Source of the DNA: a candidate division CSSED10-310 bacterium
Lineage (GTDB): Bacteria; CSSED10-310; JAFGJC01
Direction: 5' to 3'
Assembly: GCA_016927905.1 (NCBI GenBank)
Contig: JAFGLW010000024.1
Location: 81,950-145,949 of the forward strand
DNA: 64,000 bases
Shown here: one piece after another, positions 20,571-50,825 of the stretch
Numbering within the stretch: the first letter of the stretch is position 1
Layout: each line of letters starts with the position of its first letter
Made by a program: the position numbers and the translations under genes
Notes under the pieces: generated by a model
Database searches by the model: none
Seen by the model: the letters and a program-made list of their open reading frames with translations, nothing else
Told to the model about the DNA's origin: nothing

Positions 20571-23531
20571 ATGAACAATAGCTACGCGGAATCAAAAGAC
20601 ATCGCTCGAATCTCCATCCGACTGGACTGGAAAATGGCGCTGTGGGCGTTCTTGTTCCTGTTCATCCTGTTGACCCGGTTTCACCATCTTGGGGATAAAC
20701 CCTTCCATCACGACGAAAGTCTTTATGCCAAGTACATCTGGAATTTTCACGTGGGAATGGGTTACGAATACGATCCCATGCAGCATGGACCTTTCATGTT
20801 CCACATGCAGCAGATTCCCCTGTTTCTTTTTGGCGTCAACAACTACACAATTCGCATCCTCCCGGCGGTCACCGGGATCGCCCTGACGCTCGCTTTTTTT
20901 CTCATGCGTCGAAGACTCGGGGAGGGCGTTGCCCTGATGGCGGGATGGTTGTACGCAATCAATCCCGTGTTCATGTACTTCCAGCGGTTTTTAAGGCACG
21001 ATCCGTTTTTCTCGCTCTTCACCATCTTGATCTTCTTTTTCCTGCTGCTTTGGTTTCAGGACAGGAAACCCTGGCAGGCATACTCCCTGGCCGCTTCCCT
21101 GTGCATCCTGTACTGCATAAAGGAAAACGCGTTTGTCCAATTCCTGATTATTTTTTCCTTCGTCGTGATGAAGGTGTTGACGGATTTCTTCGATAAAAGA
21201 AAGGGAATGCGCGACCGGTTCAAATCGATTCCTGAAAACGCTAATCGCTATCCATACGTGACCAAGTTGTGGATTTTCGTGGCTTTATGCGGCGTTTCAT
21301 TCGTTCTGTACGCTATCGGAAACCAATGGTTGAAAGCCAGCTTCGCGAACTGGGAGAAAACCGTCCAGTACTACTGGTATGCCTGTTTCCTGTTGTATTT
21401 TGTGTTCACCGCATTCATGGTGATGCGGGGTGAACGGGTTCGCAAGAACCAGGTAACCAAACCGATGCTGGGATTTCAGCCGGGATTTTTCACGGACAGC
21501 CATGTTTTCGCTCTGAGTCTTCTGATATTCGTGAGTATTTTCATTTTGCTGTATACGACGTTTTTCACCAACCTGAAGGGATTCTGGGGCGGTATTTACA
21601 AATGGTACACCTACTGGCTCCATCAGCATTCCATCGCCCGGATCCGTGGACCCTTCCACTATTATCACCACCAGATGTTGATCTATGCCTTCATCCCGTT
21701 CTCCATCGTCCTGATCGGACTGATCAGCCGGACCATGCAGAAAACCAGATACATCATTTCCAGCGCCTATATCATCCTGTTTATCCTGGCGCTGATCGTA
21801 GCCAAAAAATCGTCTTCCCCCTGGCCGTTCACAAACCAGGATCTTTTCACAAACGAGCATCTCGTTTTCGCGGCATTTATTTTCGTGGCGGGCGCATATT
21901 GCGTGATGACATACCTGAAGGAACGGGCTTATACCAAGGCGTTTCTGAGCTGGTGGACCCTGCTGGCATATCTGATTTATTCATATCTCCAGGAGAAAGT
22001 TCCATGGTTGACCATGCACATCATCACCCCCATGATTCTGCTCGCGGCCATTTTCTTAGTTGAAATCTTCACCGACAAGAGCCTTAAATGGCAGCGGCAG
22101 GCCATGATTGGTCTGTTTGCCTTAATGGTGATGTATTCCATGCACACCGCGTTCATGCTCTGCTGGTACCATGAAGCGGATCCAACCGAACAGATGGTCT
22201 ACGTGCAAACCACCTACGACGTGCCCAGAATACTGGATGAAATCGATGAAATGGCTTTCTGGACCAACGAGGGAACCGATCTTCCGCTGGCGATCGACGG
22301 GCATGCAACTTGGCCGTTCTACTGGTATTTGAGAGACTGGAAGAACATAATCTATAACAAACAGGTTGATCCCAACCGGCATGTCATGGTGATCTGCAAC
22401 TGGGAAGACCGGCATGCACTCGCCGAGAAACTCGGGGACAATTTCATTCCCAGACGATACGGACTGAGAGCCTGGTATCTGCCCAAACGCTCCGACCTGA
22501 CCTCGGGCGATGCCCTTCGGAACGCATGGCGCTGGGTTCTGCTGCGGGAACGATTCAAACCCAGCCTGTACGGGACACAGGACATCTGCATGTTAGTCCG
22601 AAAGGATCTGGCCAAATTTTCCAAAGGCATCGATATCGGGGAAGCTCCGGTAAAAGTCAAAAAGCAGGCGCCGCCCCCCAAAGCTGCCGCGATGGTGGAC
22701 AACATCCTGGAAATCGGGCGGTTTGGTTCCGGGAAAGGCCAGTTCAACGAACCCAAGGGAATCACTGTTGACAAGGAAGGTAACATCTACGTGGCCGACA
22801 GTAAAAATGCCCGGATCCAGAAGTTTTCTCCCGGCGGGGAGGTTCTGACCACATGGGGCGTGTATGGCGAGGGGGAAGGGCAGTTCAACAGCCCAACCGG
22901 TGTCACCGCAGATTCCAGGGGATTCATCTATGTCGCGGATACCTGGAATCACCGGATACAGAAATTCGATTCGGATGGGAAATTCATCTTCGCATTCGGC
23001 GACTCCTCCATTTTCTGGGCTCCCAAAGACCTGAAAGTCGATGATGAGGGGTTCATCTATGTGGTGAATACCGGATTCCACCGCATTCAGAAATTTACCC
23101 GGAACGGCCAGCAGATCTGGTCGGTCGGAACCAAAGGAATCGATTCCACCCAGTTCACCGAACCGGTCGGGATCGACGTCGATTCTGTGGGCCGCCTTTA
23201 CATCGCCGACACGGGTAATCAGCGGGTGTCCGTTTACGACAAGGACGGTCACCTGTTGAAATCATTCCCGGTCTATGGGTGGGAATACTTCTACACCGAA
23301 CCGTTTGTCACCGTCGATACTCAAAACGACCTGATCTATCTGACCGACTCCCGGAACAACAAAATACAGGTGTTCGATATGAACGGCGAATTCAAGAATT
23401 TCTGGGGCAAGGAGGGTCTCGCGGGCGGTCAGTTCAAATTGCCCATCGGGATCACTTGTCACAATGGAAAATTATATGTGTCGGAAGTGGGAAACCATCG
23501 GGTGCAGGTGTTCGAGAGCGGAATTCAATAA
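20571..23531 (+). CDS. Agl23-like (TIGR03663-type) polytopic GT-C protein with C-terminal six-bladed NHL propeller
   Basis: Track ORF starts at 19518, but that extension is antisense to folD; in-frame ATG 20571. 'DKPFHHDESLYAKYIWNFHVGMGYEYDPMQHGPFMFHM' matches the Agl23-type family; six NHL blades 22701-23528. Confidence 0.85.
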   Translation: MNNSYAESKDIARISIRLDWKMALWAFLFLFILLTRFHHLGDKPFHHDESLYAKYIWNFHVGMGYEYDPMQHGPFMFHMQQIPLFLFGVNNYTIRILPAVTGIALTLAFFLMRRRLGEGVALMAGWLYAINPVFMYFQRFLRHDPFFSLFTILIFFFLLLWFQDRKPWQAYSLAASLCILYCIKENAFVQFLIIFSFVVMKVLTDFFDKRKGMRDRFKSIPENANRYPYVTKLWIFVALCGVSFVLYAIGNQWLKASFANWEKTVQYYWYACFLLYFVFTAFMVMRGERVRKNQVTKPMLGFQPGFFTDSHVFALSLLIFVSIFILLYTTFFTNLKGFWGGIYKWYTYWLHQHSIARIRGPFHYYHHQMLIYAFIPFSIVLIGLISRTMQKTRYIISSAYIILFILALIVAKKSSSPWPFTNQDLFTNEHLVFAAFIFVAGAYCVMTYLKERAYTKAFLSWWTLLAYLIYSYLQEKVPWLTMHIITPMILLAAIFLVEIFTDKSLKWQRQAMIGLFALMVMYSMHTAFMLCWYHEADPTEQMVYVQTTYDVPRILDEIDEMAFWTNEGTDLPLAIDGHATWPFYWYLRDWKNIIYNKQVDPNRHVMVICNWEDRHALAEKLGDNFIPRRYGLRAWYLPKRSDLTSGDALRNAWRWVLLRERFKPSLYGTQDICMLVRKDLAKFSKGIDIGEAPVKVKKQAPPPKAAAMVDNILEIGRFGSGKGQFNEPKGITVDKEGNIYVADSKNARIQKFSPGGEVLTTWGVYGEGEGQFNSPTGVTADSRGFIYVADTWNHRIQKFDSDGKFIFAFGDSSIFWAPKDLKVDDEGFIYVVNTGFHRIQKFTRNGQQIWSVGTKGIDSTQFTEPVGIDVDSVGRLYIADTGNQRVSVYDKDGHLLKSFPVYGWEYFYTEPFVTVDTQNDLIYLTDSRNNKIQVFDMNGEFKNFWGKEGLAGGQFKLPIGITCHNGKLYVSEVGNHRVQVFESGIQ

Positions 23532-23550
23532 TCGGTGTTTTTAGGGGATC

Positions 23551-23583
23551 GACAATCCGGTTGTCTGACACCGGGTTCCGGTG
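23551..23583. other. Two tandem inverted repeats in the intergenic region
   Basis: GACAA-TCCGG-TTGTC (23551-23565) and CACCGG-GTT-CCGGTG (23569-23583). Confidence 0.4.
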
Positions 23584-23608
23584 ATCCTGAAGGAAGGAAA
23601 CAGGTTAC

Positions 23609-25960
23609 ATGATTGAAATCATGCTTTGGTGGATGGTCATCACCGTCACCGGCCTGATCGCGCTCCCACTGGCTCGAAGATTCTTCAGGAGTTATCCGGA
23701 CCAAGGCTACATCCTGTCAAAAGCTTTCGGATTATGTCTTCTGAGCTTCGTCAACTGGATCCTGTCCAGCCTGCATATCCTGAAGTTCAGCCCGCTGTCC
23801 GTCCTGGTATCCATGAGTCTGATTCTCCTTGGTTCCTGGTTTCTCAAGAAAGAATCTCTTGCCGATATCGGCCAATTCTTTACCGGGCAGAAACGGGTCG
23901 TTTGGGTCTCGGAAATCGTATTTCTGGCGGCATTTGCCCTGTTTGCCTTTATCCGCATGTGCAATCCGGATATCGCGTCGACGGAAAAAATGCCGGATTT
24001 CGCCTTTTTGACCGGCATCATCAACAGCGGCTATTTCCCGCCCAAGGATCCCTGGTTTCTGGGGGAAACAATCAACTACTTCTATTACGGGCATTATCAG
24101 ATCGCCCTGTTGACTAAATTGACCGGTATCGCTCCCCAGATCGGTTTCAACCTGGGAATCGCCTTCCTTTTCGCCATTACCCTGACTACCGCATTCGGCG
24201 TCACATACGGCTTGACCCGAAACTTGAAATACGGATTTCTGGGAGGTCTTTTTGTGGCATTCATCGGCAACCTGGACGGGATCAATCAGCTGCTGTCGAA
24301 AGTAGTGCTGGGACCCGAAAAATTTTACCCGTTCACCTGGTTCAACTGGTGGATGAGTTCCCGGGTGATTGTCCGGGAAGGAGTGGATATCACCATCAAC
24401 GAATTCCCTTTCTGGAGTTATATCCTGGGCGATCTTCACGCCCATGTAAACGTAGTGCCGTTTTCTCTTTTGGTACTGGGCATCATCCTGGAATTGATGC
24501 GGGGCGGCGGCGACGGTCTGGGAGTCATCGGGCGGGGAAAGGAGTTTTATTTCCGGATCATCATCGCGGCCGTTGCTCTGGGTGCGATTCCGGCGGCCAA
24601 CACCTGGGATATGCCAACATATTTCGGATTGATGGCCGCGGCTTTGATCTTTGAGCGTCAATTCACCCGAAAATTTCCGGTAACATCGTATTTGGGATTC
24701 CTGCTCACTCCGTTCCGGGAACTTATCGACCGATGGAACAACCCGCCGGAACTAACCAAAGATCGAAACGGTTCCTTGTTCTGGAGCCGTTGGGGACTGA
24801 CATTGACCGCCGTTTTTCTGCTTATCGGAATAGCGCTTCTTCTGTATTGTCCCTATTATCAAAATTTCCAGCCCAAGGGCACCCAGGGTATCAGACTGGT
24901 CGATCCCATCCAGCGGACCCTGTGGGACGATTTCCTCACCATCTACGGATTTTTCTTTTTCTGCGTACTGTCGCTGATCCTGTACCTGTTGAAAGAACGC
25001 ATAATGAAGGTTTCACCCCGCCTGATGCCGCTTTTGGTTGGATCCCTCATCACCGGGTACATCATAACCTTCCTTGTTTTTCAGACGTTCATGGTGGCTT
25101 TCTGCATAATCGTTCTGGGATTGCTTTTGGCACTCCCGTTTTCCCAGGACGATCCCGAAAAACTGGAAAAATTCTTCGCTCTCTCACTGTTTGCTACTGC
25201 TCTGCTGATTCTTCTGGGATGCGAATTCTTTTATATCAAGGATGCTTACGGGAAAACACTGGAACGGCAAAATACCATTTTCAAATTCTATTATCAGGCA
25301 TGGGTGTTCTGCGGAATTTCATCGGCCTATGCGGTTTACCGATTCAGCGAGATTGTTAAAGAACGCTGGAAATTGACCTGGGACATGGTGTACAGGGTCC
25401 TTTTCGTTGCCACGCTGGCGTTTCCGGTTTTCGGGACAACAGTCAAATGTAATCATTTCGCAGCTTTGAAGGATAATACACCCTACGCCAAGGCGACGCT
25501 TGACGGCATATGGTATATGTCCTGGCGTTATAAGGGAGATTACCAGACCATTCAATATCTTCGAAAACACGCTAAACCCGAGGAAACCGTCCTGGAAGCT
25601 ACCGGACCGGCGTTTTCGCATTATGGGCGGATATCCGCATCCACAGGCATGTACACGCTGATCGGATGGGCGAATCATGAGAATATCTGGCGGGACGGGT
25701 CCTGGCAAATGGTCAATAAGAGGGTCAACGATGTCCGAACAATCTATTCAACTTCCGATATCAACCTGGCCGGACAGCTCCTGAATGAATACGGCATCGA
25801 TTACGTTTACGTGGGGATGCTGGAACGAGAGCAGTATCCCAATGCCGATTTCGACAAGTTCGCCTCCTTCATGACGAAGCTTCTCGATGTGGAAGATTCC
25901 GATGGGAAAATGACATATCTGTACCGTGCAAACCCGCAATCATCCACGCGGGAGGATTAA
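23609..25960 (+). CDS. DUF2298 (Chlor_Arch_YYY) membrane protein
   Basis: 'YFPPKDPWFLGETINYFYYGHYQIALLTKLTGI' YYY motif, many TMs. Confidence 0.88.
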   Translation: MIEIMLWWMVITVTGLIALPLARRFFRSYPDQGYILSKAFGLCLLSFVNWILSSLHILKFSPLSVLVSMSLILLGSWFLKKESLADIGQFFTGQKRVVWVSEIVFLAAFALFAFIRMCNPDIASTEKMPDFAFLTGIINSGYFPPKDPWFLGETINYFYYGHYQIALLTKLTGIAPQIGFNLGIAFLFAITLTTAFGVTYGLTRNLKYGFLGGLFVAFIGNLDGINQLLSKVVLGPEKFYPFTWFNWWMSSRVIVREGVDITINEFPFWSYILGDLHAHVNVVPFSLLVLGIILELMRGGGDGLGVIGRGKEFYFRIIIAAVALGAIPAANTWDMPTYFGLMAAALIFERQFTRKFPVTSYLGFLLTPFRELIDRWNNPPELTKDRNGSLFWSRWGLTLTAVFLLIGIALLLYCPYYQNFQPKGTQGIRLVDPIQRTLWDDFLTIYGFFFFCVLSLILYLLKERIMKVSPRLMPLLVGSLITGYIITFLVFQTFMVAFCIIVLGLLLALPFSQDDPEKLEKFFALSLFATALLILLGCEFFYIKDAYGKTLERQNTIFKFYYQAWVFCGISSAYAVYRFSEIVKERWKLTWDMVYRVLFVATLAFPVFGTTVKCNHFAALKDNTPYAKATLDGIWYMSWRYKGDYQTIQYLRKHAKPEETVLEATGPAFSHYGRISASTGMYTLIGWANHENIWRDGSWQMVNKRVNDVRTIYSTSDINLAGQLLNEYGIDYVYVGMLEREQYPNADFDKFASFMTKLLDVEDSDGKMTYLYRANPQSSTRED

Positions 25961-25963
25961 TCC

Positions 25964-28900
25964 ATGGAGTCTGACGTGCTGCCGGAAATACCACGGAAAA
26001 AAACAAACCGGAACTGGCTTCTTTTTCTCATCCTGATCGCCGGAACAACCTTTCGATTTTACGGAATCCGGTGGGGCATGCCAAGTTTTTTCCATCCGGA
26101 CGAACGGCAGATCATGTTCAAAGTCAACGATATATCCTGGAACGATCTTAATCCCCATTTCTTTGCCTATGGATCATTACCCATCTATGTGCTGAAAGGA
26201 ACCGTCACCGGCCTGGACCGCGTCAACCGGTTTGTTGTGGACGCAGCCAGGAAAATGGAACTGGACGCGAAGAAGGTCTCCCGGGTGAGGGAATGGTTTC
26301 CGCCAATGAATCATTTTCGGGGGCAGACCCTGACCGGGCGGGCCTTGTCCGCAATCGTATCAATCTGGACGATCGTTGTTCTTTTTTATCTGGGCAGGCT
26401 GATGTACCAGAAAAAAATCGCGCTGATTGCCGCAGCCCTGTTTTCGTTCAGCGTGTTGTCGATTCAGCAGTCTCATTTCTATGTCGTGGACGGTCCGCAG
26501 ACATTTCTGGTGGTCTGTGCAATCTATTTCATGGTCCGTATGGCCGTCGGGGACCGGGCAAGGGATTATTATTATTCTGGATTATTTATCGGTCTGGCGA
26601 TGTCCACAAAATTCAGCAGCCTGCCCATTTACATCGCGTATGCTTTCGCACACTTTCTGGCTTTGGTTCACGGGAACCGGAAAGGATTCACCCATTGGCT
26701 TCATCTTATCGGCGGCGCTCTCCTGTCGGTCGCGGTCATGACAGCCGGGATGCCTTACTGGATTCTGGATCACGAGAAATGGTGGCGGGACATACAGGAA
26801 CAATCGCGAATGGTCCGGGGAACGGCCCGGCTACCGTATACCATCCAATATGAAAATACTGCACCGTTCTGGTATCTGATTAAGAACATGGCCATTTGGT
26901 CTCTGGGTTTACCGTTCGGGATGGCGGCTTTCGCCGGTTTCGCCGTGGCCATACGCAGGTTTTTCGTTCAGACAAAAGATCTTGGCAATCAGGTCCTGCT
27001 TGCCTATGTGGTACCCATATTCATCGTCAACAGCCTGTTTCAGGTCAAGTTCCTCCGATATACACTGCCTTTGCTGCCGTTTTTTGCCCTGTTCGCCGCC
27101 AAAATGCTGTTCGATCTTCAGAAACGACACCGGATGCGCACACCGGCGAAGATACTCACCATCGTCGTACTGACCGGGACACTCATCTGGGCAATCGCAT
27201 ATACCACGGTATACCGGTATCCAAATACCCGGATCGAAGCTTCGAGCTGGGTTTATCAAAACATACCCTCCGGCGCACACATTCTTCTGGAAAGCAACTG
27301 GGACGACGCGCTCCCCGTGGGAACCCCCGATGGTAATCCCAGCGTATACACAACCAAAAAACTGGAGATTTACAGGGAACCGGAAAACGAGCGCAAGGCC
27401 GGGGAGATGGCGGAAATGCTGGAATGGGGGGATGTAATCATTCTGCCGTCCAAACGGCACTATGGGTCGGTTCTGAGGATTCCCGAACGGTTCCCGGTTT
27501 CGGGGAATTTTTACCGATCCCTGTTTGCTGAACGGCTGGGTTACCGGTATGTCAGGTGTTTCACTTCGCCGCCCCGACTGGGAAGGCTGAAATTCGAGGA
27601 CGACCTGGCGGACGAGAGTTTCCGGGTGTACGACCATCCCAAAGTGGCGATATTCCAGAAGGAAACCGCTCTGACCCGGGACCAGATCCTGCCGTATCTT
27701 CTGAATCCGCCTCCTGAAATCGCGGAAATAACTTACGAGGATATTCTCAGGGCTGTTCCTCCGGATGCAGTCGGCTCCAGAATTTCCTTCCCGGTTATCC
27801 GATGGCTGATCATCCTGGAAATCCTGGGTATCATGGTGTTTCCGACCGCTTTCCTGATTTTCCACCGGTTCAATCACCGGGGATATCCACTGAACAAAAC
27901 AATCGGCCTGATCACGGCGGGATATATCTGCTGGCTGATCCCCAGTCTGAAATGGGTGCCGTTCACCCGGACATTTCTGTTTCTGGTGATCGTTCTTTTC
28001 CTGGCGGCGAATTGCATGCTCTATATGCGGCACCGGCAGGCGATTCATCATTTCGTCAAGCAATATTGGTGGTCGATTGCAGGTTATGAGCTGCTTTTTG
28101 CGGCGGTGTTCGGGCTGTTTGTTTTTTTGAAAAGTTACAATCCCGATATATTCTGGAGCGAAAGTTCGATGGATTTCGGTTTCGTCAATTCCATCCTCAG
28201 ATCAGATTATTTTCCTCCGCATGATCCCTGGATAGAAGGCGAACCGATCAATTACTACTATTACGGGCATTATCTGGCCGCTTTCATGACGCGTCTGGCG
28301 GGAATCGAATCCAGCTACGGATACAACCTGTTCTTCGCCACAATCCCCGCCCTGGTGGCGCTGGCGGTAGCCTCCATACTCATCAGCCTGACCCGGCGCT
28401 TGTGGGCGGGTGTCCTGGGCGTCCTGTTCACCATAGTAATCGGCAATCTGGACGGCGTGGCTCAGATGGCCCAGATATGGAGCCGGATTCCCAAAACATC
28501 GGGCCTGTTCCCGGCTGCCGGGATATTCCGGGATTTTGTGGGCAGTTTCCTGGTTCTGGGTCGCTCGGAAGTGCATTTCAGGTTCTTCAGATCCGCCCAC
28601 GAGTTGATCCGGCCGACAGTTCATGAATTTCCATATTGGAGTTACAATTTCATGGACCTTCACGCCCACACAATCGCCACATTAATATCGTCTCTCGTCC
28701 TGGTATTCCACCTGGTGCTGTTCCGCAACCGGAAGAAGGGATTCGGTATTTTCGGCACCGGCATCACCCGGTACCTGACTCTGGGTGTCCTGTCCATCGC
28801 CCTGGGCGCTCTGATCCCCACCAACAGCTGGGATTTTCCCACACATTGCCTGGTCATATTCCTGATATTGAATTTCATGCCGCTCGAAAAACCGGCCGGT

Positions 28901-31294: not shown

Positions 31295-31348
31295 AATGGG
31301 ATCAGGTCCACTCGCGCTCTTTCTCCTGCAGGGAGATGTGAGGTAACC

Positions 31349-32011: not shown

Positions 32012-32022
32012 GAAGCAAATGA

Positions 32023-33750
32023 TCAATCCAGCCGCTGTAGCGGCCGGCAAATGCAGATCGTATTCAAGTTGAACCGCGTGTCCCATACGACGCAATCACC
32101 CAGCTTCAGAAGATCCTGGGGCATGGGAATATGGGAATCATGCGCAACCAGAAAACCACCGGGATCCCGGATTTCATCCGTTGAGTTGACCACGTGAACC
32201 GAGCTGTAATCATAAAGGAACCGGTATGCATTTTTTGATTCGAGGAATTTTCTGTCCGTCATCAAATACACCAGGATGCCGGTGTGTTCTTTCTGGATCT
32301 TGTCTATCTCCCGTGCCAGGAGAAGGTTCAGATCATAGAAATACCGCTGCACACCGGCATCACTCAGGGCAGTGTTGAAAAACCGGTCGGCATTTACCGG
32401 GACGATGACACCCATTAAACCGGTCAGCACGACCGCTTTCAGAAAACGGCGGAACCGGGTGTTTTCGGGAAGGCTGTCGGCAGGATAACCGATCAGGAGA
32501 AGAACCATCGGGATGGCCGGAATCAGCCGGTACCGTTGCGGATTCAGAACCAGTAATCCGGACAGGAGAACGATACCGGTTATCCCGGTTACCAGGAACA
32601 GTTTCATGAAATTCTTGCGCAGGGTGACCAGGCAGTAAATGAAAGCAATCCCACTCAGAATCCCCGTGATCGGATCGATGATTCCCAGGCTGCCGGGAAG
32701 AATCTCCCTGCAATCCATTCCGCTGATAAAGAAAAAACGAACGGTAATCCAGACCTTCCTCATCTGTAGGGTGATCAGGTCCGAGAAACCGTCGAACCGC
32801 AGCGCATTGTGATGCCTGAGAATTCCTTCGGTGAATGGAAGGATAGATATTCTTCCGGGCCAGACAAGTGTCGGGAGAACCACCGTAAAAGGCATTACCA
32901 GGGCCAGAAAGAAATGCGACAGACGGGTGAATCGTGCGGGCCGGGATTTCGGTGATCGGGTATCTTCCGGATTGGTCGATCTCATGCAAAGACAGGTTGC
33001 GGCCAGACAGACCATGATCAGACCGCCGGTTAACTTGTAGCTGAAATATTCGGTCAGCAGCAGACCGTCGGCCAGACCGGCTGAGATCAATGTCCCGGTA
33101 TCGGGGTACCGAAGAAATAGAGCGAAGGCTGCAATGGCGACCACCAGTGTTGTCACCGGGGACATGGTTTCCATGGCGATCCGGGATGATCCGGCAAGAT
33201 ATGCCTGGGTTGCGAACAGCATGGACACGAAAAAGACGGTGTAAACGGATCGGAATAGCTGGGTTGCCGCCATAAAGAAAAACAGCACACCGGTCAAGCT
33301 GTACAGCGTGAACGCCCATCGCATTCCGCGCAGATCCATGCCGAAAAGCCGGAAACCGGTTTCAGCCACCAGGTTGACCAGCGGGAAATATATATCCAGT
33401 GTTTCCGTCTCAATCGAGTTCAATGCGTAGGAGGCGGTCTGATATTCTTCCACCATCTGCCCGTCATCCGGCGGGAACACGCTGAATCGATAGGTTCTGA
33501 AGACTATTCCCGCCGCCAGCACCATACCGAATACCAACAGAAAAACAGTATTGATTTGGGGAATTCCCGTCCGGTTGTTCGCCAGGCACCTGAAAACCAG
33601 CAGCACCATTGCCAGTATTGATGCCGACAAAACCAAAAGAAACGCTTCCCGAAACGTGATCCGGTTGAAATATCTCAGAAGGCAGGCTGTCCCGGTCAGT
33701 CCCGTTAATCCGTAAAAAACGGTCCAGGGAATCAGTTGAGACTTTTCCAT
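32023..33750 (-). CDS. Polytopic GT39-like membrane protein
   Basis: Many TMs with an acidic first-loop motif 'FRTYRFSVFPPDDGQMVEEYQTASYAL'. Confidence 0.65.
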   Translation of the reverse strand: MEKSQLIPWTVFYGLTGLTGTACLLRYFNRITFREAFLLVLSASILAMVLLVFRCLANNRTGIPQINTVFLLVFGMVLAAGIVFRTYRFSVFPPDDGQMVEEYQTASYALNSIETETLDIYFPLVNLVAETGFRLFGMDLRGMRWAFTLYSLTGVLFFFMAATQLFRSVYTVFFVSMLFATQAYLAGSSRIAMETMSPVTTLVVAIAAFALFLRYPDTGTLISAGLADGLLLTEYFSYKLTGGLIMVCLAATCLCMRSTNPEDTRSPKSRPARFTRLSHFFLALVMPFTVVLPTLVWPGRISILPFTEGILRHHNALRFDGFSDLITLQMRKVWITVRFFFISGMDCREILPGSLGIIDPITGILSGIAFIYCLVTLRKNFMKLFLVTGITGIVLLSGLLVLNPQRYRLIPAIPMVLLLIGYPADSLPENTRFRRFLKAVVLTGLMGVIVPVNADRFFNTALSDAGVQRYFYDLNLLLAREIDKIQKEHTGILVYLMTDRKFLESKNAYRFLYDYSSVHVVNSTDEIRDPGGFLVAHDSHIPMPQDLLKLGDCVVWDTRFNLNTICICRPLQRLD

Positions 33751-33767
33751 TGCCTATCCGGATGCGA

Positions 33768-36725: not shown

Positions 36726-37656
36726 ACCGGTCGATATTATCCAGGATTTCTTCGTTCAATCTGCGGTTGACTGCGATCAGATCGGCGATGACGCCGATCA
36801 GAACAAGGAAAAAACCGGTCAGAATGCACACCGCGGAAACAACCACCGATTGAACCTTGCCGGATGGATTCGGCCAGCTGCTCAGGTAATAGTAAATGAA
36901 TCTGAAGAACAAAACAGCTCCAAGACCCAGAAAGAAATATCCACTCCGGGCGAACAGCTTGACCGGGCTGTACAATGCCCAGATCCGGATCATGGTGGCG
37001 GTCTGCCGGCGGATGTAATACCAGTTGCTTCGAAATAACCGGCTTTTCCTGGCAGGCGGGTTGATCTGCACCGGAACCGATACGATCCGAAAACCACTCT
37101 GGCTTGCCTGAATCAGAGTTTCGACCGTGTAGGTGAATTCCGAAAACACCCGAAGCCGTCTGGCTGCATGATAGGAGTAGGCTCTGAAACCGGATGTAAC
37201 ATCCGGGATGTTCAATCCGGTCAGGAACCGGACCATGCGGCTGCCCGTTTTCTGGAGCAGCTTTTTTGTCGGGGAAAAGTGGGGAATGGCGTCGATCGGC
37301 CGGCTCCCGACAACAAGATCAGCCCTGTTGTGCAAAACAGGCCCGATAAGGTCGGCGATACAGGCGGCGTCATATTGATTGTCGGCGTCTGTATTCACCA
37401 CGATATCGGCATTTGAACGAACCGCGTATTTCAGGCCGGCTGAGAATGCTTTTGCCAGACCCTGGTGAACAGGCAGCTCAAGAACATGGTGCACATTCAA
37501 CGATCGGGCGATATCCGCAGTGCCGTCCGTGGATCCGTCATCGATGACCAGCAGTTCGATGGAATCAACGCCTTCGATGGAATCGGGAAGCGCTCGGATG
37601 GTTTCGGGAAGCGTTTCGGCTTCATTGAAACACGGGATTTGAATGATCAGCTTCAT
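36712..37656 (-). CDS. GT2 family, polyprenyl-phosphate sugar synthase (DPM1/PglC-like) with C-terminal TMs
   Basis: 'IIQIPCFNEAETLPETIRALP...LLVIDDGSTDGTADIARSL...VVNTDADNQYDAACIADLI'; start adjusted inside the track ORF. Confidence 0.88.
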   Translation of the reverse strand: MKLIIQIPCFNEAETLPETIRALPDSIEGVDSIELLVIDDGSTDGTADIARSLNVHHVLELPVHQGLAKAFSAGLKYAVRSNADIVVNTDADNQYDAACIADLIGPVLHNRADLVVGSRPIDAIPHFSPTKKLLQKTGSRMVRFLTGLNIPDVTSGFRAYSYHAARRLRVFSEFTYTVETLIQASQSGFRIVSVPVQINPPARKSRLFRSNWYYIRRQTATMIRIWALYSPVKLFARSGYFFLGLGAVLFFRFIYYYLSSWPNPSGKVQSVVVSAVCILTGFFLVLIGVIADLIAVNRRLNEEILDNIDRFEDH

Positions 37657-37818
37657 CAACAGCATATTAAAAATGAAACAATCCATTAAAGCAAGTTCCG
37701 ATAACCGGGATATCCCCCAGATCGAAAACCGTTTGAACAGGCAGTATATAGAAGTTAAAATAAAGGTTCGTATTTTCGCCCGGACCGGTCGTCCAGGCGG
37801 GAGATTGCTGGAAGGAAC

Positions 37819-39264
37819 ATGCCAAAGAAGCCGTCACGTCTGGCATTGCAACATATCATCCGACTCAGGATGTCGGCTTTGTATATCGCCATTCTGTTCA
37901 TTTTGGGATGTGGATTATCGCCTTCAAATGAAACCGGAACACTCCCGGCAAACCAATCCGCCCGGAACAGGTCGTCTGCAGGGCAGCCTGTGAATCTGGT
38001 GATTTTCACTCTGGATACCACCCGCGCCGATCATCTGGGATCGGGCGGTTACGAACGTATCCTGACACCGAATCTGGACCGGTTGGCCCGCGGGGGAATA
38101 CAATATATCAACGCTTATGCCCAGGCTCCCCGCACGGTGGAATCCCATGCTTCCATATTTACCGGAATTTATCCGTTCATTCATCAGGCAGCGAACGCCT
38201 CGGGAAGAGGTAAATTCCCGATGAGCGATCGGTTCGAGACCCTTGCTGAAATCATGCGGGAAAACGGGTACCAGACTGCGGCATTCACAACCAGTGTCAT
38301 GGTCCGGGCGCGGGACAGCGGCTTGGAGCAGGGATTTGAGACCTATTCGGATTATGATCAGGGGGAATTGAAGGCCGACCGGAACAACCAGCGGTTTTTC
38401 AGGTGGTTCGAGCAAAAAGCCGTGCAGCCGTTCTTTGTGTGGATCCATTATTATGATCCCCATATCCCGTATGCAGCTCCCGCGCCGTTCGACTCGTTGT
38501 ATGAGCCGGTTACCGGTCATCACACCTATAAAAAGATCGTTCGCAAACAGGGTTTGACGAATCTGGAAAATTACACGGTCGGTGAAGGTATCAGCCGGTA
38601 TGATGAAGAAATCACCTTCATGGATCATCATTTCGGGAAGATAATTGAGTTCCTGAACCGGAAAGGACTGCTTGATTCAACCGTTCTCGTTACCATTGCG
38701 GATCATGGTGAAAGCCTTTCCGAACACAACTCGTTCTTCAGCCACGGATACGATATTTTCGAACCCGCGGTTCGAATACCCTGCATGATTCTGGATCCCG
38801 GTTCGGATCGGGGGGGCATGATTGTCAATGCTCTGGTCGAAAGCGTGGATGTGTTTCCGACGATCATGAATCGGTTCGGATTGCGTCATTCTAATCCCAT
38901 TCAAGGAAGGAATCTCACCGGTTATTTCGATTCGGATACGGCGGTTTCCAGAGACAGGGTTTTCAGTCAGAGAAATGCGGATTCACCCAGGATTCTGCAG
39001 TTCGGAGTGCGGGATCGGCGATGGACCTATATAACCGGCAAGGATACACCCCGCATGGCTTATGTGTTTGACAGAGATATCGATCCGGGGGAGATCCGGA
39101 ACCGGGGGACCCATCCTCCCGCTGATTTCGATCGGGATCTATTTCATGAATTCCTTATGGATCAGCTGGGTGCGAAGGACGAATATCCGGCTGCAACTCC
39201 CATCAGCCTTCCTCTGGATTCCAGACTGGCGGAACAGCTGGAAGTACTGGGATACATGCACTGA
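37819..39264 (+). CDS. Sulfatase/alkaline-phosphatase-superfamily lipoprotein
   Basis: Lipobox 'FILGCG'; 'NLVIFTLDTTRADHLGSGGY...TPNLDRLA', 'ESHASIFTGIYP', 'ADHGESLSEHNSFFSHGYDIFEPAVRIPCMI'. Confidence 0.9.
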   Translation: MPKKPSRLALQHIIRLRMSALYIAILFILGCGLSPSNETGTLPANQSARNRSSAGQPVNLVIFTLDTTRADHLGSGGYERILTPNLDRLARGGIQYINAYAQAPRTVESHASIFTGIYPFIHQAANASGRGKFPMSDRFETLAEIMRENGYQTAAFTTSVMVRARDSGLEQGFETYSDYDQGELKADRNNQRFFRWFEQKAVQPFFVWIHYYDPHIPYAAPAPFDSLYEPVTGHHTYKKIVRKQGLTNLENYTVGEGISRYDEEITFMDHHFGKIIEFLNRKGLLDSTVLVTIADHGESLSEHNSFFSHGYDIFEPAVRIPCMILDPGSDRGGMIVNALVESVDVFPTIMNRFGLRHSNPIQGRNLTGYFDSDTAVSRDRVFSQRNADSPRILQFGVRDRRWTYITGKDTPRMAYVFDRDIDPGEIRNRGTHPPADFDRDLFHEFLMDQLGAKDEYPAATPISLPLDSRLAEQLEVLGYMH

Positions 39265-39305
39265 AGGAAATATCTTGAACCGTGAATCTCCTCAAGCGGT
39301 GCAGA

Positions 39306-40079
39306 TCAGTACCTTGAAAATCGAATCCTGAACAGATCCCGAAGCATGCGCGGAACCTGACTTCGCAGGCGGATGGTGGAGGATCGAAGCTGGGGATGCA
39401 TCCGGACCGGAACTTCGACGAACTTCAGATGCAGACGGCGGGCGATATGAAGCACCTCCACATCGAAGGCGAATCCGGTGCAGGTCACTTTCGGAAATAT
39501 ACCATCCACGGCCTTGCGGTTGAAGAATTTCAATCCACACTGGGAATCGGAACCGGTTTTCAATCCGAGCATTGCCACAATCCACTGGAATACCCGTGAT
39601 GAATATTCCCGCGATCGTGGGTAAGCGCTCCGGGCAGAGGTGAGGCGTCGCGTTCCCAGTGCAATATCCGCATCACCGCGGAGCAGCGGGATTACCAGCG
39701 CATTGTACTGGTCGGGACTGTAGGCCAGGTCCGCATCGGTGAATCCGGTGATATCTCCACGGGCGTCACGCATTCCACGGCATACGCTGAATCCCTTTCC
39801 ATGGTTTCCATCGTTTTTCAAAAGCCTTATCCGCTCCTCTCGACGCGACCATTCGGAGACCACTCCGGCGGTTCCATCCGTGCTGCCGTCATCCACTACA
39901 ACAATCTCCAGCAAACCAGCACCGGGTGCTACATTCCAGGCAGTCAGCCTTTCGAGAGTTGCGGGAAGCGTCGATTCCTCGTTGTATGCGGGAATTACAA
40001 GGGTTATGCTCGAACCGGACCGGGTGAAATCGCCGGGGACGTTAAGCGATGCTGCAGTCATGTCCGGAATGTCTTTCAT
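39306..40079 (-). CDS. GT2 family, dolichyl-phosphate beta-glucosyltransferase-like
   Basis: 'LVIPAYNEESTLPATLERLTAW...VVDDGSTDGTAGVVSEW...GKGFSVCRGMRDARGDITGFTDADLAYSPDQ'. Confidence 0.9.
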   Translation of the reverse strand: MKDIPDMTAASLNVPGDFTRSGSSITLVIPAYNEESTLPATLERLTAWNVAPGAGLLEIVVVDDGSTDGTAGVVSEWSRREERIRLLKNDGNHGKGFSVCRGMRDARGDITGFTDADLAYSPDQYNALVIPLLRGDADIALGTRRLTSARSAYPRSREYSSRVFQWIVAMLGLKTGSDSQCGLKFFNRKAVDGIFPKVTCTGFAFDVEVLHIARRLHLKFVEVPVRMHPQLRSSTIRLRSQVPRMLRDLFRIRFSRY

Positions 40080-40082
40080 AAA

Positions 40083-42356
40083 TCAAGCGCCGGATCCGCT
40101 GCCGGTTCGATATCCGGGAGGATATGGCTGGTTTTTGAGATCCAAGATCGGTTTTCCGTCCGGATCGTGGATTCCGACCGCCACGTACCAGTCACCCACC
40201 GTTTCGCAGCTCCTGAGAAACAGTTCGTTCCATCCGGTCCGGAACAGTACATTCAGAACTCTGGGGGATTCAAAAAGCGTCGTCATGTCCATTACCACAC
40301 GGCCGTTCAGCCACATCATGGCTTTGTCCCGGGACCCCGAAACCTCCAAAACCGCATGCGTATCCTCAGGAAAATAAAGATACGTCGCGCCCTCGGCACA
40401 GCATCTTTCCGGGTTCCTGGGGTATTTCGGATGATCGTGTTTGAAGATGGTCTGTAAATCCAGCGTGGCCGAATTGTTTTTTCTGGACGTCCATTTGAGG
40501 TTGGGTTTCAAACCGGGCCGCCGCGAGCTTTCCTCTGAAAAGGGTTCGATATATTCGGTGTCGAATTCCTGATTGCGATCGTAATCGAACAATCCCAATA
40601 AGGACCAGTTGTTCAGAAATGTCTTCCAGCTCCTGACATCCACGACCAGGAAATTTGTCTTGCCGCTGGGATCGATCACCTCATGCAGAATCTCGTATTC
40701 TGCAAAATAATGGATCTCATCGTCCCGCAAAGCATACAGAGTGGGCCGGCTGAGATTGAACCGTTGGTATCCCTCGGGTTTCCCGATCATGTACCCGTTA
40801 TTATGGGATTTTGACCAGACGGTGGGATCAAGACGGGTATAGAAATTGACGAAAATCTGGGGTTGATTTACGGATGTCGCCGTCAGAATCCGCTGTGGAT
40901 ATTGGTCTTTCCGGGATTCCATGAATTCGATCATCTCACGGTACCCATATTGAAATCCGTATATTCCCCGGGCGGACATGATGGGATAGCGGTTGAAATA
41001 GAGTGTGAAATAACGCATCGCTTCGTTCGCGAAAAAAAACGCGATCGTGACGCTCACAACCACCTGTACACCGGCGGATAACCATCGCACCCGGATCCGG
41101 CTCACAGCGTCCTGAATCCATGTTATGGTGAACGCGCTGAGAATCGGTGCAAGCGGGCTCCCGATGATCGATCGGGTGGCATAAAGCTGATTCGTAAACG
41201 CAGCTGCGACGGGAAATAAAAATATCCACGCCAGGATCAGAAAATGCAGCCGTCCCGGCACCATGCAGATCAGAAACACACCCGCCAGGGTCAGCGGGAG
41301 AAAGGTTTTGTATAATTCGCCGTGATTGGCGATGGAATGACGTGCGTTTCGATCACCATTTTCAAACAGGAAATCATACGAATAAAATCTCTGATAATTG
41401 GACCAGAATCGCTCCGCCTTGGCGGTCAGGGAAGTGTATTTCGATTCGTTCAGCCAGCTGTTCGATTTGAAATGCGATGTGGTTTTCAACTCCATCCTGA
41501 ATTTGACGGCCGGAGTGGCGATCAGTGCAAACAGGATCACACCGGGCAGGACATACACCCACTGGCGAATCAGATTGGGAAGGAAGATGATGAAGACGCA
41601 AATCAGAAATAACGGCATGAAAATGACCGCCATTACATAAGTATGAACGGTCAATCCGAACATCAGGCCCGCGCCCGCCCAGTTCCATCCGCCTTTCCTC
41701 AGGGCTCGGACCAGAAATGCAAAACCGAAGACGAACATGCACGGCCAGGAAATCAACTCGAATGCGATTCTGCTGAAATGGAAATTCCAGGGCGTAATGG
41801 ATAAGAACAACGCCGCCCAGAGACCGGCATATATTCCCCATAATTCATATACCAGCCAGAAGGTTCCCAATACCGTCAATGTTCCGAAAACAACACTGGT
41901 CAGGCGAACATTGGCCTCGGTCGGACCCAGCAGCCTGACCGGCAGGATTGCTGCATAGATATAGACGGGATTCTTGTGACCGCCGAACGAATTGATGTAA
42001 AGCGGGAAGGATTTCCCGTTTTCATCGATTCCCCAGCCTCCCAGAGCAAATGCATTGTACCCGATGGAAGCTTCGTCGCAAAAGAAACCGGCAGGGATAT
42101 CACCCACCCTGTAAACCCGGATGAAAAAAGCGAATGCGAGTATCAGGGCAAGCAATACCCGATCCTGCCAGATGAACTTTCGTCTTCCGCAAAATGACGC
42201 TGCGGTGTATCTGCCGTTTTCGGATCGCGTTGATTTCTCAGTCATCTTCAGGCTGTCTTTCACCGGATCAGATGCCCGGTTCATTTTCCCGCATATTCTA
42301 GCTTCCGAAGACTTTTTTTCAATCTTCGAAATGAAATGGAATCGCGAATGAATCAA
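40083..42356 (-). CDS. GT39/ArnT-like membrane glycosyltransferase with C-terminal beta-rich domain
   Basis: 'RVYRVGDIPAGFFCDEASIGYNAFALGGWGIDENGKSFPLY', multiple TMs; C-term 'HAVLEVSGSRDKAMMWLNGRVVMDM...GWNELFLRSCETVGDWYVAVGIHDPDG'. Confidence 0.82.
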   Translation of the reverse strand: MIHSRFHFISKIEKKSSEARICGKMNRASDPVKDSLKMTEKSTRSENGRYTAASFCGRRKFIWQDRVLLALILAFAFFIRVYRVGDIPAGFFCDEASIGYNAFALGGWGIDENGKSFPLYINSFGGHKNPVYIYAAILPVRLLGPTEANVRLTSVVFGTLTVLGTFWLVYELWGIYAGLWAALFLSITPWNFHFSRIAFELISWPCMFVFGFAFLVRALRKGGWNWAGAGLMFGLTVHTYVMAVIFMPLFLICVFIIFLPNLIRQWVYVLPGVILFALIATPAVKFRMELKTTSHFKSNSWLNESKYTSLTAKAERFWSNYQRFYSYDFLFENGDRNARHSIANHGELYKTFLPLTLAGVFLICMVPGRLHFLILAWIFLFPVAAAFTNQLYATRSIIGSPLAPILSAFTITWIQDAVSRIRVRWLSAGVQVVVSVTIAFFFANEAMRYFTLYFNRYPIMSARGIYGFQYGYREMIEFMESRKDQYPQRILTATSVNQPQIFVNFYTRLDPTVWSKSHNNGYMIGKPEGYQRFNLSRPTLYALRDDEIHYFAEYEILHEVIDPSGKTNFLVVDVRSWKTFLNNWSLLGLFDYDRNQEFDTEYIEPFSEESSRRPGLKPNLKWTSRKNNSATLDLQTIFKHDHPKYPRNPERCCAEGATYLYFPEDTHAVLEVSGSRDKAMMWLNGRVVMDMTTLFESPRVLNVLFRTGWNELFLRSCETVGDWYVAVGIHDPDGKPILDLKNQPYPPGYRTGSGSGA

Positions 42357-42371
42357 GGGTAAACGCAGTTT

Positions 42372-45300
42372 CTAATCGGGAGCGGATATCGTATCGATTT
42401 CAAACGATAGAATCCGGTCATTCCGGCAATCTACGACGGCCAGCTTCCGCGTTTCAGGGTCGTAATCGATGCCCATCGGGTATGAAAACGGCGATTCGGT
42501 CGTCGAACCGGGTGGCGGGAACTGGGATATCATGTCTCCCGTCTGCGGGTCGAACACCAGTATCCGGTGAGCCGGCGGATCCGTCACGTAAAGATTGTTG
42601 AATTCATCCAGACAGAGATACGGCAGATTGAAAGGATGATCCTCCCATCCCTCGATCGAGATCAATCGCTCAACTTTTCCGTCCGGATCCAATATTTGTA
42701 CCCGCCTGTTATCGCGGTCGGCAACAATCAGATTTCCCTTGGTATCGATTGTTATCCCGACCGGTTTTTTGAACTGACCGGGTGCCGATCCCCTGCTCCC
42801 CAGAACCGATAAGACCTTACCCTGCAGGTCGATTTTCACGATCTGGTCATGACCGTAATCGGAAACCCACAAACCTTCGGGTGCCGGGCAAAGATCACGT
42901 GGATAATCAAAAAGATATGGGGTCATCGGCATGAATTCCCCCAGACTGGTGAATTTCTGCACCCGGTGGTTGAATGTATCCGCAATAAATACAAATCCGT
43001 CATCCGTAAACAACACGCCGCAGGGATCGTTCAGTCTTCCCGGCAGGTTCCCCTTCGATCCGAACGCCCGGATGAAACGGTCATTCCGGTCGAAAATAAC
43101 GACCCGGTAATTCCTGAAATCGGCAACAGCATACATGCCTTCCGGGCCGAAATCTACGTCTCGGGGCTCGTTCAACGCAACCTGTGCCATTTCATACGCA
43201 CCGACCGCGGGCCCGGAAGTGGTATTTTGTGGTTCCGGCTCATCGTCTTCGGTTTGTGGTGCCGTTGTGGACCTGGCGGTACCACCACCCTTCACAGGGG
43301 GAATCTCAAAATATGTCCCGTAAGCTTCCGCCAGCATCTTGCGCATGTGTTCAGCCAGAGGAAGATACAGATCCACAATGTTGTTTTTTTCCAGAGGATC
43401 GGTATCGATATTGAACAACTCATAGGTGTTCACCTGCTGGGTGTAAATCAGTTTCCAGGGACCGTAGATCACCCCGTATTTCCGGTATTGACGATTGGGT
43501 ACAAGTGTGAATACCGGGCCCAGATCCTCCGTTCTCCCGTTGTAAATCAACGGCAGAAGATTGGTGCCATCCAGGCGCGATTGAGATTGAATATCCAGGA
43601 ACGCCAGAAGAGTGGGCACGATATCCACGGACCCGACAGGGACCTTCACACGCCGGCCTTTCAATTTCGGGAAATTGATTATCAGAGGTGTGTGGATCGA
43701 TTCGTTATACAGATGCTTACCGTGAAAACTGTCCCCGTGATCGGAGAATTCCTCCCCGTGATCCGCAGTGATCACAACCAAGGTCCTGCGGATCAGGCCG
43801 GATTCCTCCAAAAAGTCAAGCAGCGGTTTGAGGTGTTTGTCTGTGAATGCAATCTCCCCATCATAAAACGCCGTTTTCAAATCCTTGAACCGCTCCGTTT
43901 CAGCATGCGGTAGATAGGCTTCATGCGGATCGAGAAGATGGGAATAGAGAAAAAACTTCTCATCGCTAATTTCCCTGAGAATCCGGATGATGGCATCAAC
44001 GGTTTCCGGAGTTGTGGGAGTTCCCCAGATTTCCCCGTAATCCCTGTCGAACAGATGCATGATGTCATAATTTTTTCTGAATGGGTGTTCTCTGAACAAG
44101 GTGTCGTATCCGACGAAGGCCGTTCGATACCCATGTTCTTTCAATATGTCTTTCAACAGCATGGTGCGTTCGGGAATGAAATGCCGGGGATATATACCGG
44201 ACAGGAACGAATTGATGGAACGCGGTGAATCACCGCCCTGTATGAAATTGCGTTCGAATAACACTCCCTGTTCGGCGAAGGCATCCAGGTTCCGACTGGT
44301 CGGATGGGGATACCCGTATGTGGACAGGTGATCCGCACGTACGGCATCGATCGACAGAAACAGGATATTCCAGTCCGATGTGTCCCCGATGATTTCACGG
44401 ACCGGTCTGCCGTCGTAAGGGTAATCCTGGATCGAATCCGCCAGATAACGCCTAAAATCGAAGACGCCCCGCTGCAGAGGTATCTTGACCAGCGACGGCA
44501 GCCGGTTGACCGGCAGGATCCTTCCCGCGGATCTAAGTGTCGAAGCAGTGATATACGTGTGTTTGTGAATCTGGACCGGCAGATTGTAACTGTAATTCAC
44601 CGTCAGAAGGCTCACGGCGGCCAGGAAAACGGCTGTCCAGATCAACAGCCGCGCCGCCGGCTGCTTTCCCAGGAATCTGTTGACCCCCAGAAACGGTTTC
44701 CGGGTGAACAGATAGATTAAAAGGATGAAAATGACAAATTCGCCCAGTGCTTCCAGATTCAGGACCAGGCTCAACCAGCGGTAGTTTGCATGCACGAGAA
44801 TGAGAATGAAAATACCGGAAATCAAATAAGGATTCGTTATATAATCACTCAGCCGTTTTGCCGGGGATTGCAGGGTTCCGCTTTCCGGGCGCATCGCCGA
44901 AGCCCGGGAAACGTTCGCGGTAATCCAGGCCACCAGAAGAAACAGGCAGGCCAGAACAATGAACTGGATGGCGGCAATCGAGAAAGCGATCATGGCATGG
45001 TTGTGAAACCGGTCGATGAACAGCTTGATCAGGCGGTAATCGGCGAACGTAAACACCCATAACAACAGGAAGATCGGGAAATGGGGAATATGTCTCCAGC
45101 CGAGATCGGCGTCAGGAAACAGATGGTTTCGAATCCGCCTGTGGACCTGGGCGGATAAACGGAATACCAGGTAGGCTGAAATCGATAGCAGAGCCGCCAT
45201 GCCCCAGATTATCACATGGAACAGAACGCGTTCGGTACCGTTGTTCAAAGACGGATTGCCGGAGATCAGAACAGCGATGGTCTCGATGACGGCAACGGTA

Positions 45301-45395
45301 AATCCGGATAACACGAACAAACCCGCTACCGGAAGGCTGAAAGAATTTTGATTCTTGACCGGGACCGTCATATGATCAGGACTCCCTGGGATCAA
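42372..45395 (-). CDS. Membrane-anchored sulfatase-like protein with C-terminal NHL propeller
   Basis: Multiple N-terminal TMs; 'NILFLSIDAVRADHLSTYGYPHPTSRNLDAFAEQG...VVITADHGEEFSDHGDSFHGKHLYNESIHTPLII'; NHL blades coding about 43200-42372. Confidence 0.88.
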   Translation of the reverse strand: MIPGSPDHMTVPVKNQNSFSLPVAGLFVLSGFTVAVIETIAVLISGNPSLNNGTERVLFHVIIWGMAALLSISAYLVFRLSAQVHRRIRNHLFPDADLGWRHIPHFPIFLLLWVFTFADYRLIKLFIDRFHNHAMIAFSIAAIQFIVLACLFLLVAWITANVSRASAMRPESGTLQSPAKRLSDYITNPYLISGIFILILVHANYRWLSLVLNLEALGEFVIFILLIYLFTRKPFLGVNRFLGKQPAARLLIWTAVFLAAVSLLTVNYSYNLPVQIHKHTYITASTLRSAGRILPVNRLPSLVKIPLQRGVFDFRRYLADSIQDYPYDGRPVREIIGDTSDWNILFLSIDAVRADHLSTYGYPHPTSRNLDAFAEQGVLFERNFIQGGDSPRSINSFLSGIYPRHFIPERTMLLKDILKEHGYRTAFVGYDTLFREHPFRKNYDIMHLFDRDYGEIWGTPTTPETVDAIIRILREISDEKFFLYSHLLDPHEAYLPHAETERFKDLKTAFYDGEIAFTDKHLKPLLDFLEESGLIRRTLVVITADHGEEFSDHGDSFHGKHLYNESIHTPLIINFPKLKGRRVKVPVGSVDIVPTLLAFLDIQSQSRLDGTNLLPLIYNGRTEDLGPVFTLVPNRQYRKYGVIYGPWKLIYTQQVNTYELFNIDTDPLEKNNIVDLYLPLAEHMRKMLAEAYGTYFEIPPVKGGGTARSTTAPQTEDDEPEPQNTTSGPAVGAYEMAQVALNEPRDVDFGPEGMYAVADFRNYRVVIFDRNDRFIRAFGSKGNLPGRLNDPCGVLFTDDGFVFIADTFNHRVQKFTSLGEFMPMTPYLFDYPRDLCPAPEGLWVSDYGHDQIVKIDLQGKVLSVLGSRGSAPGQFKKPVGITIDTKGNLIVADRDNRRVQILDPDGKVERLISIEGWEDHPFNLPYLCLDEFNNLYVTDPPAHRILVFDPQTGDMISQFPPPGSTTESPFSYPMGIDYDPETRKLAVVDCRNDRILSFEIDTISAPD

Positions 45396-50774: not shown

Positions 50775-50825
50775 CCGTCCGTCCAGCCACTCTTTCAGAA
50801 AAATGTTATCTCCGGGCTTCAAATA

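Follow-up and report, generated by a model that had tools for sequence, protein, structure and literature searches.

In a window of 64,000 nucleotides from a candidate division CSSED10-310 bacterium (contig JAFGLW010000024.1; the window is the whole stretch of DNA that we analyzed), four genes encode different membrane enzymes, all of which carry a six-bladed NHL propeller of one kind. It is well supported that this propeller constitutes a shared module of outer-face enzymes of the GT-C glycosyltransferase (GT) type, and on balance we lean toward the view that its carriers are parts of a widespread system for outer-face glycosylation, in which one type of ligand-binding propeller is common to the enzymes and each propeller grips the same ligand. 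The common kind of propeller, its restriction to the system, the predicted export of the N-terminal propeller, its residue signature and its exchange between enzymes were all obtained by computation. They support, in part, an interpretation that had been made from the letters of the DNA alone (hereafter the original prediction), in which one special kind of propeller is tied to outer-face GT-C enzymes. We refer to the genes at positions 20571-23531, 23609-25960, 25964-31294, 33768-36725 and 42372-45395 of the window as genes 1 to 5, respectively; genes 1, 3, 4 and 5 carry the propellers. The source bin, related to candidate division CSSED10-310, comprises 3.12 Mb in 31 contigs and is about 86% complete.

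One kind of propeller on four membrane enzymes

The four open reading frames on which the original prediction relied are present at these positions, and the six NHL blades attributed to each of their products were borne out by alignment; the phrase YVADxxNxRIQ, thought to be common to all, recurs in three of the proteins, and gene 5 possesses the variant FIADTFNHRVQ. Matches to the Pfam NHL model (PF01436) have E values of 9e-46, 4e-32, 2e-36 and 2e-20 for genes 1, 3, 4 and 5, respectively, all four scoring above the gathering cut-off of 20, and the AlphaFold model of gene 1, in which the propeller consists of 24 strands, agrees with this assignment, as do its Foldseek matches. The four propellers are 33-40% identical in pairwise comparisons, follow the same blade register and have in common an odd fifth blade of the form GW[ED]....EPY. 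They do not belong to the scytonemin NHL protein family ScyF (NF035926), whose model requires 350 bits and gives the window proteins 127-189 bits.

In gene 4, the propeller is N-terminal and follows a signal peptide, whereas it is C-terminal in genes 1, 3 and 5. This signal peptide ends in ESC, an imperfect lipobox, and a Cys-ended signal peptide is likewise found in three relatives (L053, L057 and L073, with IGC, AGC and INC). Propellers that stand alone in other genomes either begin with a signal resembling that of lipoproteins or are anchored by one N-terminal transmembrane segment, and where a propeller is C-terminal, it comes after the outer domain of its enzyme, be this of the GT-C or of the phosphatase type. 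Hence, all of the propellers are expected to be located outside the membrane.

A comparison of 63 propellers of the system with 17 ordinary bacterial and archaeal NHL propellers revealed a distinct residue signature, whose positions we number according to gene 1. Position 819 is basic in each of the 63 system propellers, and none of the 17 ordinary ones has an Arg there; position 729 is basic in 59 of the 63; position 904 is a Trp in 54 of them, versus none of the ordinary propellers. In all four window propellers, both 729 and 819 are basic and 904 is a Trp. A count of P-x-G that does not depend on the register points in the same direction, with Arg or Lys in 28% of the system blades versus 7% of the ordinary ones. 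In the gene 1 model, whose predicted local distance difference test (pLDDT) score is about 96 in the propeller, DSSP has the innermost strand of blade 1 begin at residue 729 and that of blade 3 at residue 819, and it assigns residue 904 to the loop that leads into the innermost strand of blade 5. Judging from these strand assignments, the three residues should encircle the central channel where it opens on one face of the propeller, and we infer that this face forms the pocket.

The enzymes joined to the propellers are largely those originally named. Gene 1 is an Agl23-type protein (PMT_2; 260.4 bits against TIGR03663, with a full-length cut-off of 126.25), and its HDE, HGP and EK..PW motifs are invariant in an alignment of 38 sequences. 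Gene 3 combines GT39 (PMT_2) with DUF2298, and gene 4 is a GT39 (PMT_2) enzyme. Genes 2 and 3 belong to the Chlor_Arch_YYY/DUF2298 family, scoring 546 and 475 bits against TIGR03662 (cut-off 300.25). The structural model of the gene 2 protein (predicted template modelling score 0.90) resembles DPY19 (E value 2e-8, probability 1.00), AglB (2e-6), AftA (3e-6) and ArnT (8e-3), with modest TM-scores of 0.31-0.55; because of these fold matches, DUF2298 is most likely a GT-C enzyme.

For gene 5, the original designation as sulfatase-like did not hold beyond a match to PF00884. It is probably not a formylglycine-type sulfatase, as there is no C/S-x-P-x-R motif at the nucleophile. Gene 5 is a member of the alkaline phosphatase superfamily, with the D of SIDAVRAD, the DHG and the H of FHG aligned with its relatives and a Ser nucleophile; the nucleophile stretch reads S-P-R-S-I in gene 5 and S-I-F-S-L in the relative from genome G004, and other relatives have a Thr. 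With 24-38 bits against LtaS and YejM models whose cut-offs exceed 800, and with a Ser in the nucleophile column, it does not match the LtaS/EptA type; it probably acts as a phospho-group transferase or hydrolase.

Restriction, history and spread of the propeller

All four propeller genes of the genome are situated within 25 kb, and the NHL model finds no other protein above threshold. The more sensitive profile built from the four propellers adds one weak match (27 bits) on another contig. The chance that the other three propellers would fall into the same 25 kb is approximately (25/3118)^3, or 5e-7, a value meant as an illustration. The propeller is carried by 3 of the 37 PMT_2 sites and by 1 of the 16 sites related to gene 5; these are many PMT_2 and phosphatase sites for a genome of 3.1 Mb. 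NHL fusions scattered elsewhere in the genome and joined to enzymes other than GT-C proteins, which would have spoken for a generic domain, are ruled out.

In a quick phylogenetic tree, all 63 system propellers fall on one branch apart from the ordinary NHL proteins, with a Shimodaira-Hasegawa-like approximate likelihood ratio test (SH-aLRT) support of 98. Our careful trees, which leave out two long branches (the degenerate fifth propeller of genome G002, L056 282-3377, and one GT39 propeller of genome G006, L070), do not reject a single separation of the system from generic NHL propellers (p-AU of 0.51 in the approximately unbiased test). For genes 1, 3 and 4, the propeller clusters, with full support, with its counterparts on the corresponding enzyme of other CSSED10-310 genomes, and not with unrelated NHL proteins, a placement that would have refuted the original prediction; that of gene 5 lies on a long branch inside the system group. 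A recent origin of the four window propellers as copies of one another is ruled out (log-likelihood drop of 270, p-AU 3e-136). Propellers and the catalytic domains joined to them show about the same degree of conservation. In the bacterium STD1_218 (L118), two different membrane proteins, a GT39-DUF2298 and a second GT-C-like protein with differing flanking parts, share 785 identical propeller bases on one metagenome contig (positions 10013-10797 and 12695-13479), which may reflect recent domain copying or an assembly artifact. Collectively, the grouping by enzyme and the catalytic-like conservation suggest old associations that have been maintained, with occasional copying as in L118.

Of the eight genomes examined from the CSSED10-310 phylum, seven have full-length relatives on enzymes of these types. 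We also searched 85,000 species with the propeller alone and examined the best 80 matches, 60 of which are full-length. The fusion partner is Agl23 in 53 of the full-length matches and GT39-DUF2298 in one; the rest are separate propellers adjoining Agl23 or DUF2298, a GT-C-like fusion, or proteins cut by a contig edge. The remaining 20 of the 80 match only in part and belong to ordinary NHL proteins rich in repeats. The special propeller is present in at least seven lineages, and its carriers include Chloroflexota, Acidobacteriota, Binatia, Deltaproteobacteria/Myxococcota, Auribacterota and FCPU426; a cultured carrier is Levilinea saccharolytica (L142). Among 81 Chloroflexota genomes, 54 possess Agl23, and nearly all full-length propeller matches of at least 228 bits are in frame with it; one propeller adjoins Agl23 in another frame. 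Further propellers, from 19 genomes, reside on GT39 or GT39-DUF2298 wherever the partner can be read, and phosphatase-type genes adjoin some of the corresponding genes (L217 and L219). The search of 85,000 species and the Chloroflexota survey rule out that the propellers are peculiar to the window locus; the uniqueness of the set that the original prediction implied is not borne out, as the Agl23 fusion is widespread.

In FCPU426, a propeller-less Agl23 is followed by stand-alone anchored propellers. The loci L085, L086 and L090 represent a split fusion, an Agl23 without propeller followed by two stand-alone propeller proteins with a single transmembrane segment each; in L085 and L090, DUF2298 directly precedes Agl23. 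Several variant architectures were encountered as well. Two GT39 enzymes carry two outer modules, PA14 and then the NHL propeller (L091 8586-12023 and L120 14472-18026); the GT-C protein at L056 282-3377 of the CSSED10-310 genome G002 has a strongly degenerate C-terminal propeller and adjoins a GT39-DUF2298-NHL gene; and in other CSSED10-310 families, GT39-DUF2298 proteins possess an extra, more degenerate propeller or piece of one before the standard propeller (L062 7006-12762, L061 8010-13874 and L064 284-6289).

Candidate roles of the propellers

The signature on the pocket side, the exchange of propellers between enzymes and the stand-alone propellers beside Agl23 together favor a common ligand or partner; they do not separate tethering of the enzymes from holding of a glycan. 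In the system that we envision, cytoplasmic GT2 and GT4 enzymes and the Wzx-type flippase of the cluster (Table 1) would deliver lipid-linked intermediates to the outer face, and the GT2 synthases would provide polyprenyl-phosphate sugars with which the GT-C enzymes (Agl23, DUF2298 and GT39) could extend the glycan outside, where the alkaline-phosphatase-superfamily enzyme of gene 5 might modify it. The propeller face, with its two basic residues and its aromatic ones, would grip a common ligand, for which the growing glycan or the lipid or protein that carries it is the most likely candidate, so that the acceptor would be kept at the membrane and handed on among the enzymes. Going further, we tentatively suggest that one dedicated propeller serves as a common docking module by which several unrelated enzyme families, in at least seven bacterial lineages, engage the same lipid-linked glycan or carrier, whether they are fused to the propeller or have it next to them, its copies being homogenized within a genome to keep their specificity; this appears quite possible to us, although the odds are somewhat against it.

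Several points weigh against a shared ligand-binding propeller. The ligands of NHL propellers range from proteins and RNA to small molecules, and we know of none for any of the propellers of this system. The Agl23 of the archaeon Methanogenium lacks a propeller; because archaeal Agl23-DUF2298 loci do without it, the propeller must be an addition to the pathway that the chemistry does not need. As to the signature, gene 5 lacks Glu 910, and about half of the GT39 propellers lack Trp 904. The branch separating system from generic propellers is weak in the careful tree, with a bootstrap value of 61 and one generic row outside. The propeller of gene 5, besides its long branch, comes from a single genome, and in G004 the relative of this gene is cut off before the propeller position; the 785-base identity in L118 may be an assembly artifact because most of the genomes are metagenome bins.

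The propellers might alternatively bind one another or a common scaffold, thereby tethering the enzymes into one outer-face complex, with the signature as a protein-binding face. Propellers, including those of the NHL type, often bind proteins, all carriers of the window genome are encoded in one locus, and in FCPU426, Acidobacteriota and one Chloroflexota genome, Agl23 occurs together with separate propellers that are anchored to the membrane or by a lipid; those of FCPU426 fit a ligand-holding and a scaffold role alike. However, three outer multi-transmembrane proteins of the locus (those beginning at 23609, 32023 and 40083) have no propeller, and some genomes possess a single full-length propeller, on Agl23, for which only a scaffold would be left to pair with. 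No candidate for such a scaffold was identified. Overall, we judge tethering to be rather unlikely. Still less probable, in our estimation, is a mere accessory domain that helps GT-C enzymes to fold or to be positioned, that has no common ligand and that spread by shuffling among neighbors in glycan loci. Related GT-C enzymes do carry other outer domains, for instance PA14 together with NHL, and copying of domains between neighbors does occur (L118), but this explanation does not account for residues that are kept across partner types and yet absent from ordinary NHL propellers, for enzyme-less propellers beside Agl23, or for the 34 other PMT_2 sites of the genome that lack a propeller. Catalytic or sensory propellers, resembling lactonases or lyases (SGL, Vgb) or cell-wall sensors such as PknD, are very improbable. 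The extracellular domain of PknD is a structural relative and there are weak Pfam matches to SGL and Vgb_lyase, but these matches are incomplete, and that to Vgb stays below its cut-off, as one would expect of any NHL propeller; no conserved set of metal-binding His, Asp or Glu residues is conspicuous in the signature columns.

The locus and related systems

The glycan gene cluster extends from position 20571 to 50822 of the window and, upstream of 20402, is bordered by housekeeping genes (trigger factor, ClpP, FolD and tRNAs). Besides the four propeller genes, it comprises a propeller-less DUF2298, two multi-transmembrane proteins, two GT2 enzymes resembling polyprenyl-phosphate-sugar synthases, a second phosphatase-type protein, a Wzx-type flippase, a methyltransferase, two GT4 and one further GT2 (Table 1). 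The 575-residue protein with nine transmembrane segments encoded at 32023-33750 has no match in Pfam or NCBIfam and contains an FPPDDGQ loop; it probably represents an undescribed GT-C type. Elsewhere in the window, a 749-residue protein (10891-13140) carries a spermine-synthase domain (residues 285-420) between long unassigned flanks, and a Ser/Thr protein kinase with TPR repeats (52730-55243) is encoded just past the cluster.

Table 1. Features of the glycan gene cluster, with positions in the window
Feature	Positions	Strand	Basis or remark
Gene 1, Agl23-type GT-C membrane domain and outer alpha/beta domain	20571..22670	+	TIGR03663; AlphaFold pLDDT 87
Gene 1, six-bladed NHL propeller, C-terminal	22713..23528	+	Pfam, alignment, AlphaFold; Foldseek match to Thin NHL propeller 6xg7, TMt 0.87
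Gene 2, DUF2298/Chlor_Arch_YYY without propeller; predicted GT-C glycosyltransferase	23609..25960	+	TIGR03662, 546 bits; fold matches
Gene 3, N-terminal GT39/PMT_2 GT-C domain	25964..27763	+	PMT_2 E 9e-15
Gene 3, DUF2298/YYY domain	27776..30310	+	TIGR03662, 475 bits, residues 610-1449
Gene 3, NHL propeller, C-terminal	30476..31291	+	Pfam, alignment
Protein with nine transmembrane segments, GT-C-like, without propeller	32023..33750	-	Relative adjoins Agl23-NHL in L182
Gene 4, GT39/PMT_2 GT-C domain	33771..35738	-	PMT_2 E 3.5e-13
Gene 4, NHL propeller, N-terminal, behind Cys-ended signal peptide	35769..36623	-	Pfam, alignment
GT2, polyprenyl-phosphate-sugar synthase-like (AglJ-like)	36712..37686	-	Overlaps gene 4; same neighbor in G001 and G002
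Alkaline-phosphatase-superfamily protein without propeller	37819..39264	+	Thr in nucleophile column
GT2, polyprenyl-phosphate-sugar synthase-like	39306..40079	-	Sequence; relatives adjoin the system in L053, L083, L118 and L140
PMT_2 GT-C enzyme without propeller	40083..42356	-	PMT_2 E 4e-7; syntenic copy in G002
Gene 5, NHL propeller, C-terminal	42375..43220	-	Pfam, alignment
Gene 5, alkaline-phosphatase-superfamily domain (Pfam Sulfatase)	43326..44381	-	Ser nucleophile, no C/S-x-P-x-R
Gene 5, N-terminal membrane domain with six transmembrane segments	44586..45395	-	Hydropathy; syntenic G004 relative 40% identical, cut by contig end
Wzx/MATE-type lipid-linked glycan flippase	45431..46912	+	PF13440
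Methyltransferase, two GT4, one GT2 (cytoplasmic glycan assembly)	46899..50822	-	

A type of propeller that marks the enzymes of a pathway offers a search handle for outer-face glycosylation, which to our knowledge is almost uncharacterized in Chloroflexota and many uncultured phyla. The propeller type also predicts DUF2298 to be a GT-C glycosyltransferase, and it leads to a testable idea of how a number of membrane enzymes could reach one glycan, by a binding module common to several families rather than by an acceptor site in every enzyme. Produced recombinantly, the propellers are domains of the soluble type that could be probed on glycan arrays.

The system is apparently an undescribed variant of known GT-C glycosylation; we found no paper describing a propeller-sharing glycosylation system in the open-access literature covered. 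Purified Agl23 of Haloarcula hispanica translocates lipid-linked Man5GlcNAc2 in liposomes (PMC11182771). Gene 1 resembles it in its TIGR03663 membrane domain, and the genes for Agl23 and DUF2298 stay together in archaea as they do in the cluster; the archaeal Agl23 proteins examined lack the propeller that gene 1 possesses, and flippase activity is known only for the H. hispanica protein. For the Chlor_Arch_YYY/DUF2298 family (TIGR03662, PF10060), to which genes 2 and 3 belong, NHL fusions were likewise not found in the same body of literature, and the family note is known to mention TPR but not NHL. Gene 5 shares with LtaS/EptA/YejM-type enzymes an N-terminal transmembrane bundle followed by an outer alkaline-phosphatase-superfamily domain, as well as weak matches to LapC/YejM and LtaS models; it differs from them in scoring far below the equivalog cut-offs, in its propeller and in having a Ser instead of a Thr as the nucleophile.

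The propeller itself has the same fold as those of Thin, TRIM71, TRIM2 and Brat and as the PknD sensor, with Foldseek TMt values for the gene 1 propeller of 0.87 to Thin (6xg7) and up to 0.92 to TRIM2, and E values down to 1e-23. These relatives bind RNA or proteins, or sense the state of the cell wall, and the signature contrast outlined above was drawn against bacterial and archaeal NHL proteins only. A functional analogy is provided by the GT-C arabinosyltransferases of the EmbC/AftD type with their carbohydrate-binding modules and by PMT with its MIR domains, in which the extra outer domain is thought to aid acceptor binding. In these enzymes, as in those described here, a GT-C enzyme is combined with an additional outer domain, but their modules are beta-sandwiches or beta-trefoils, whereas the system presented here employs a six-bladed NHL propeller that is common to several enzyme families.

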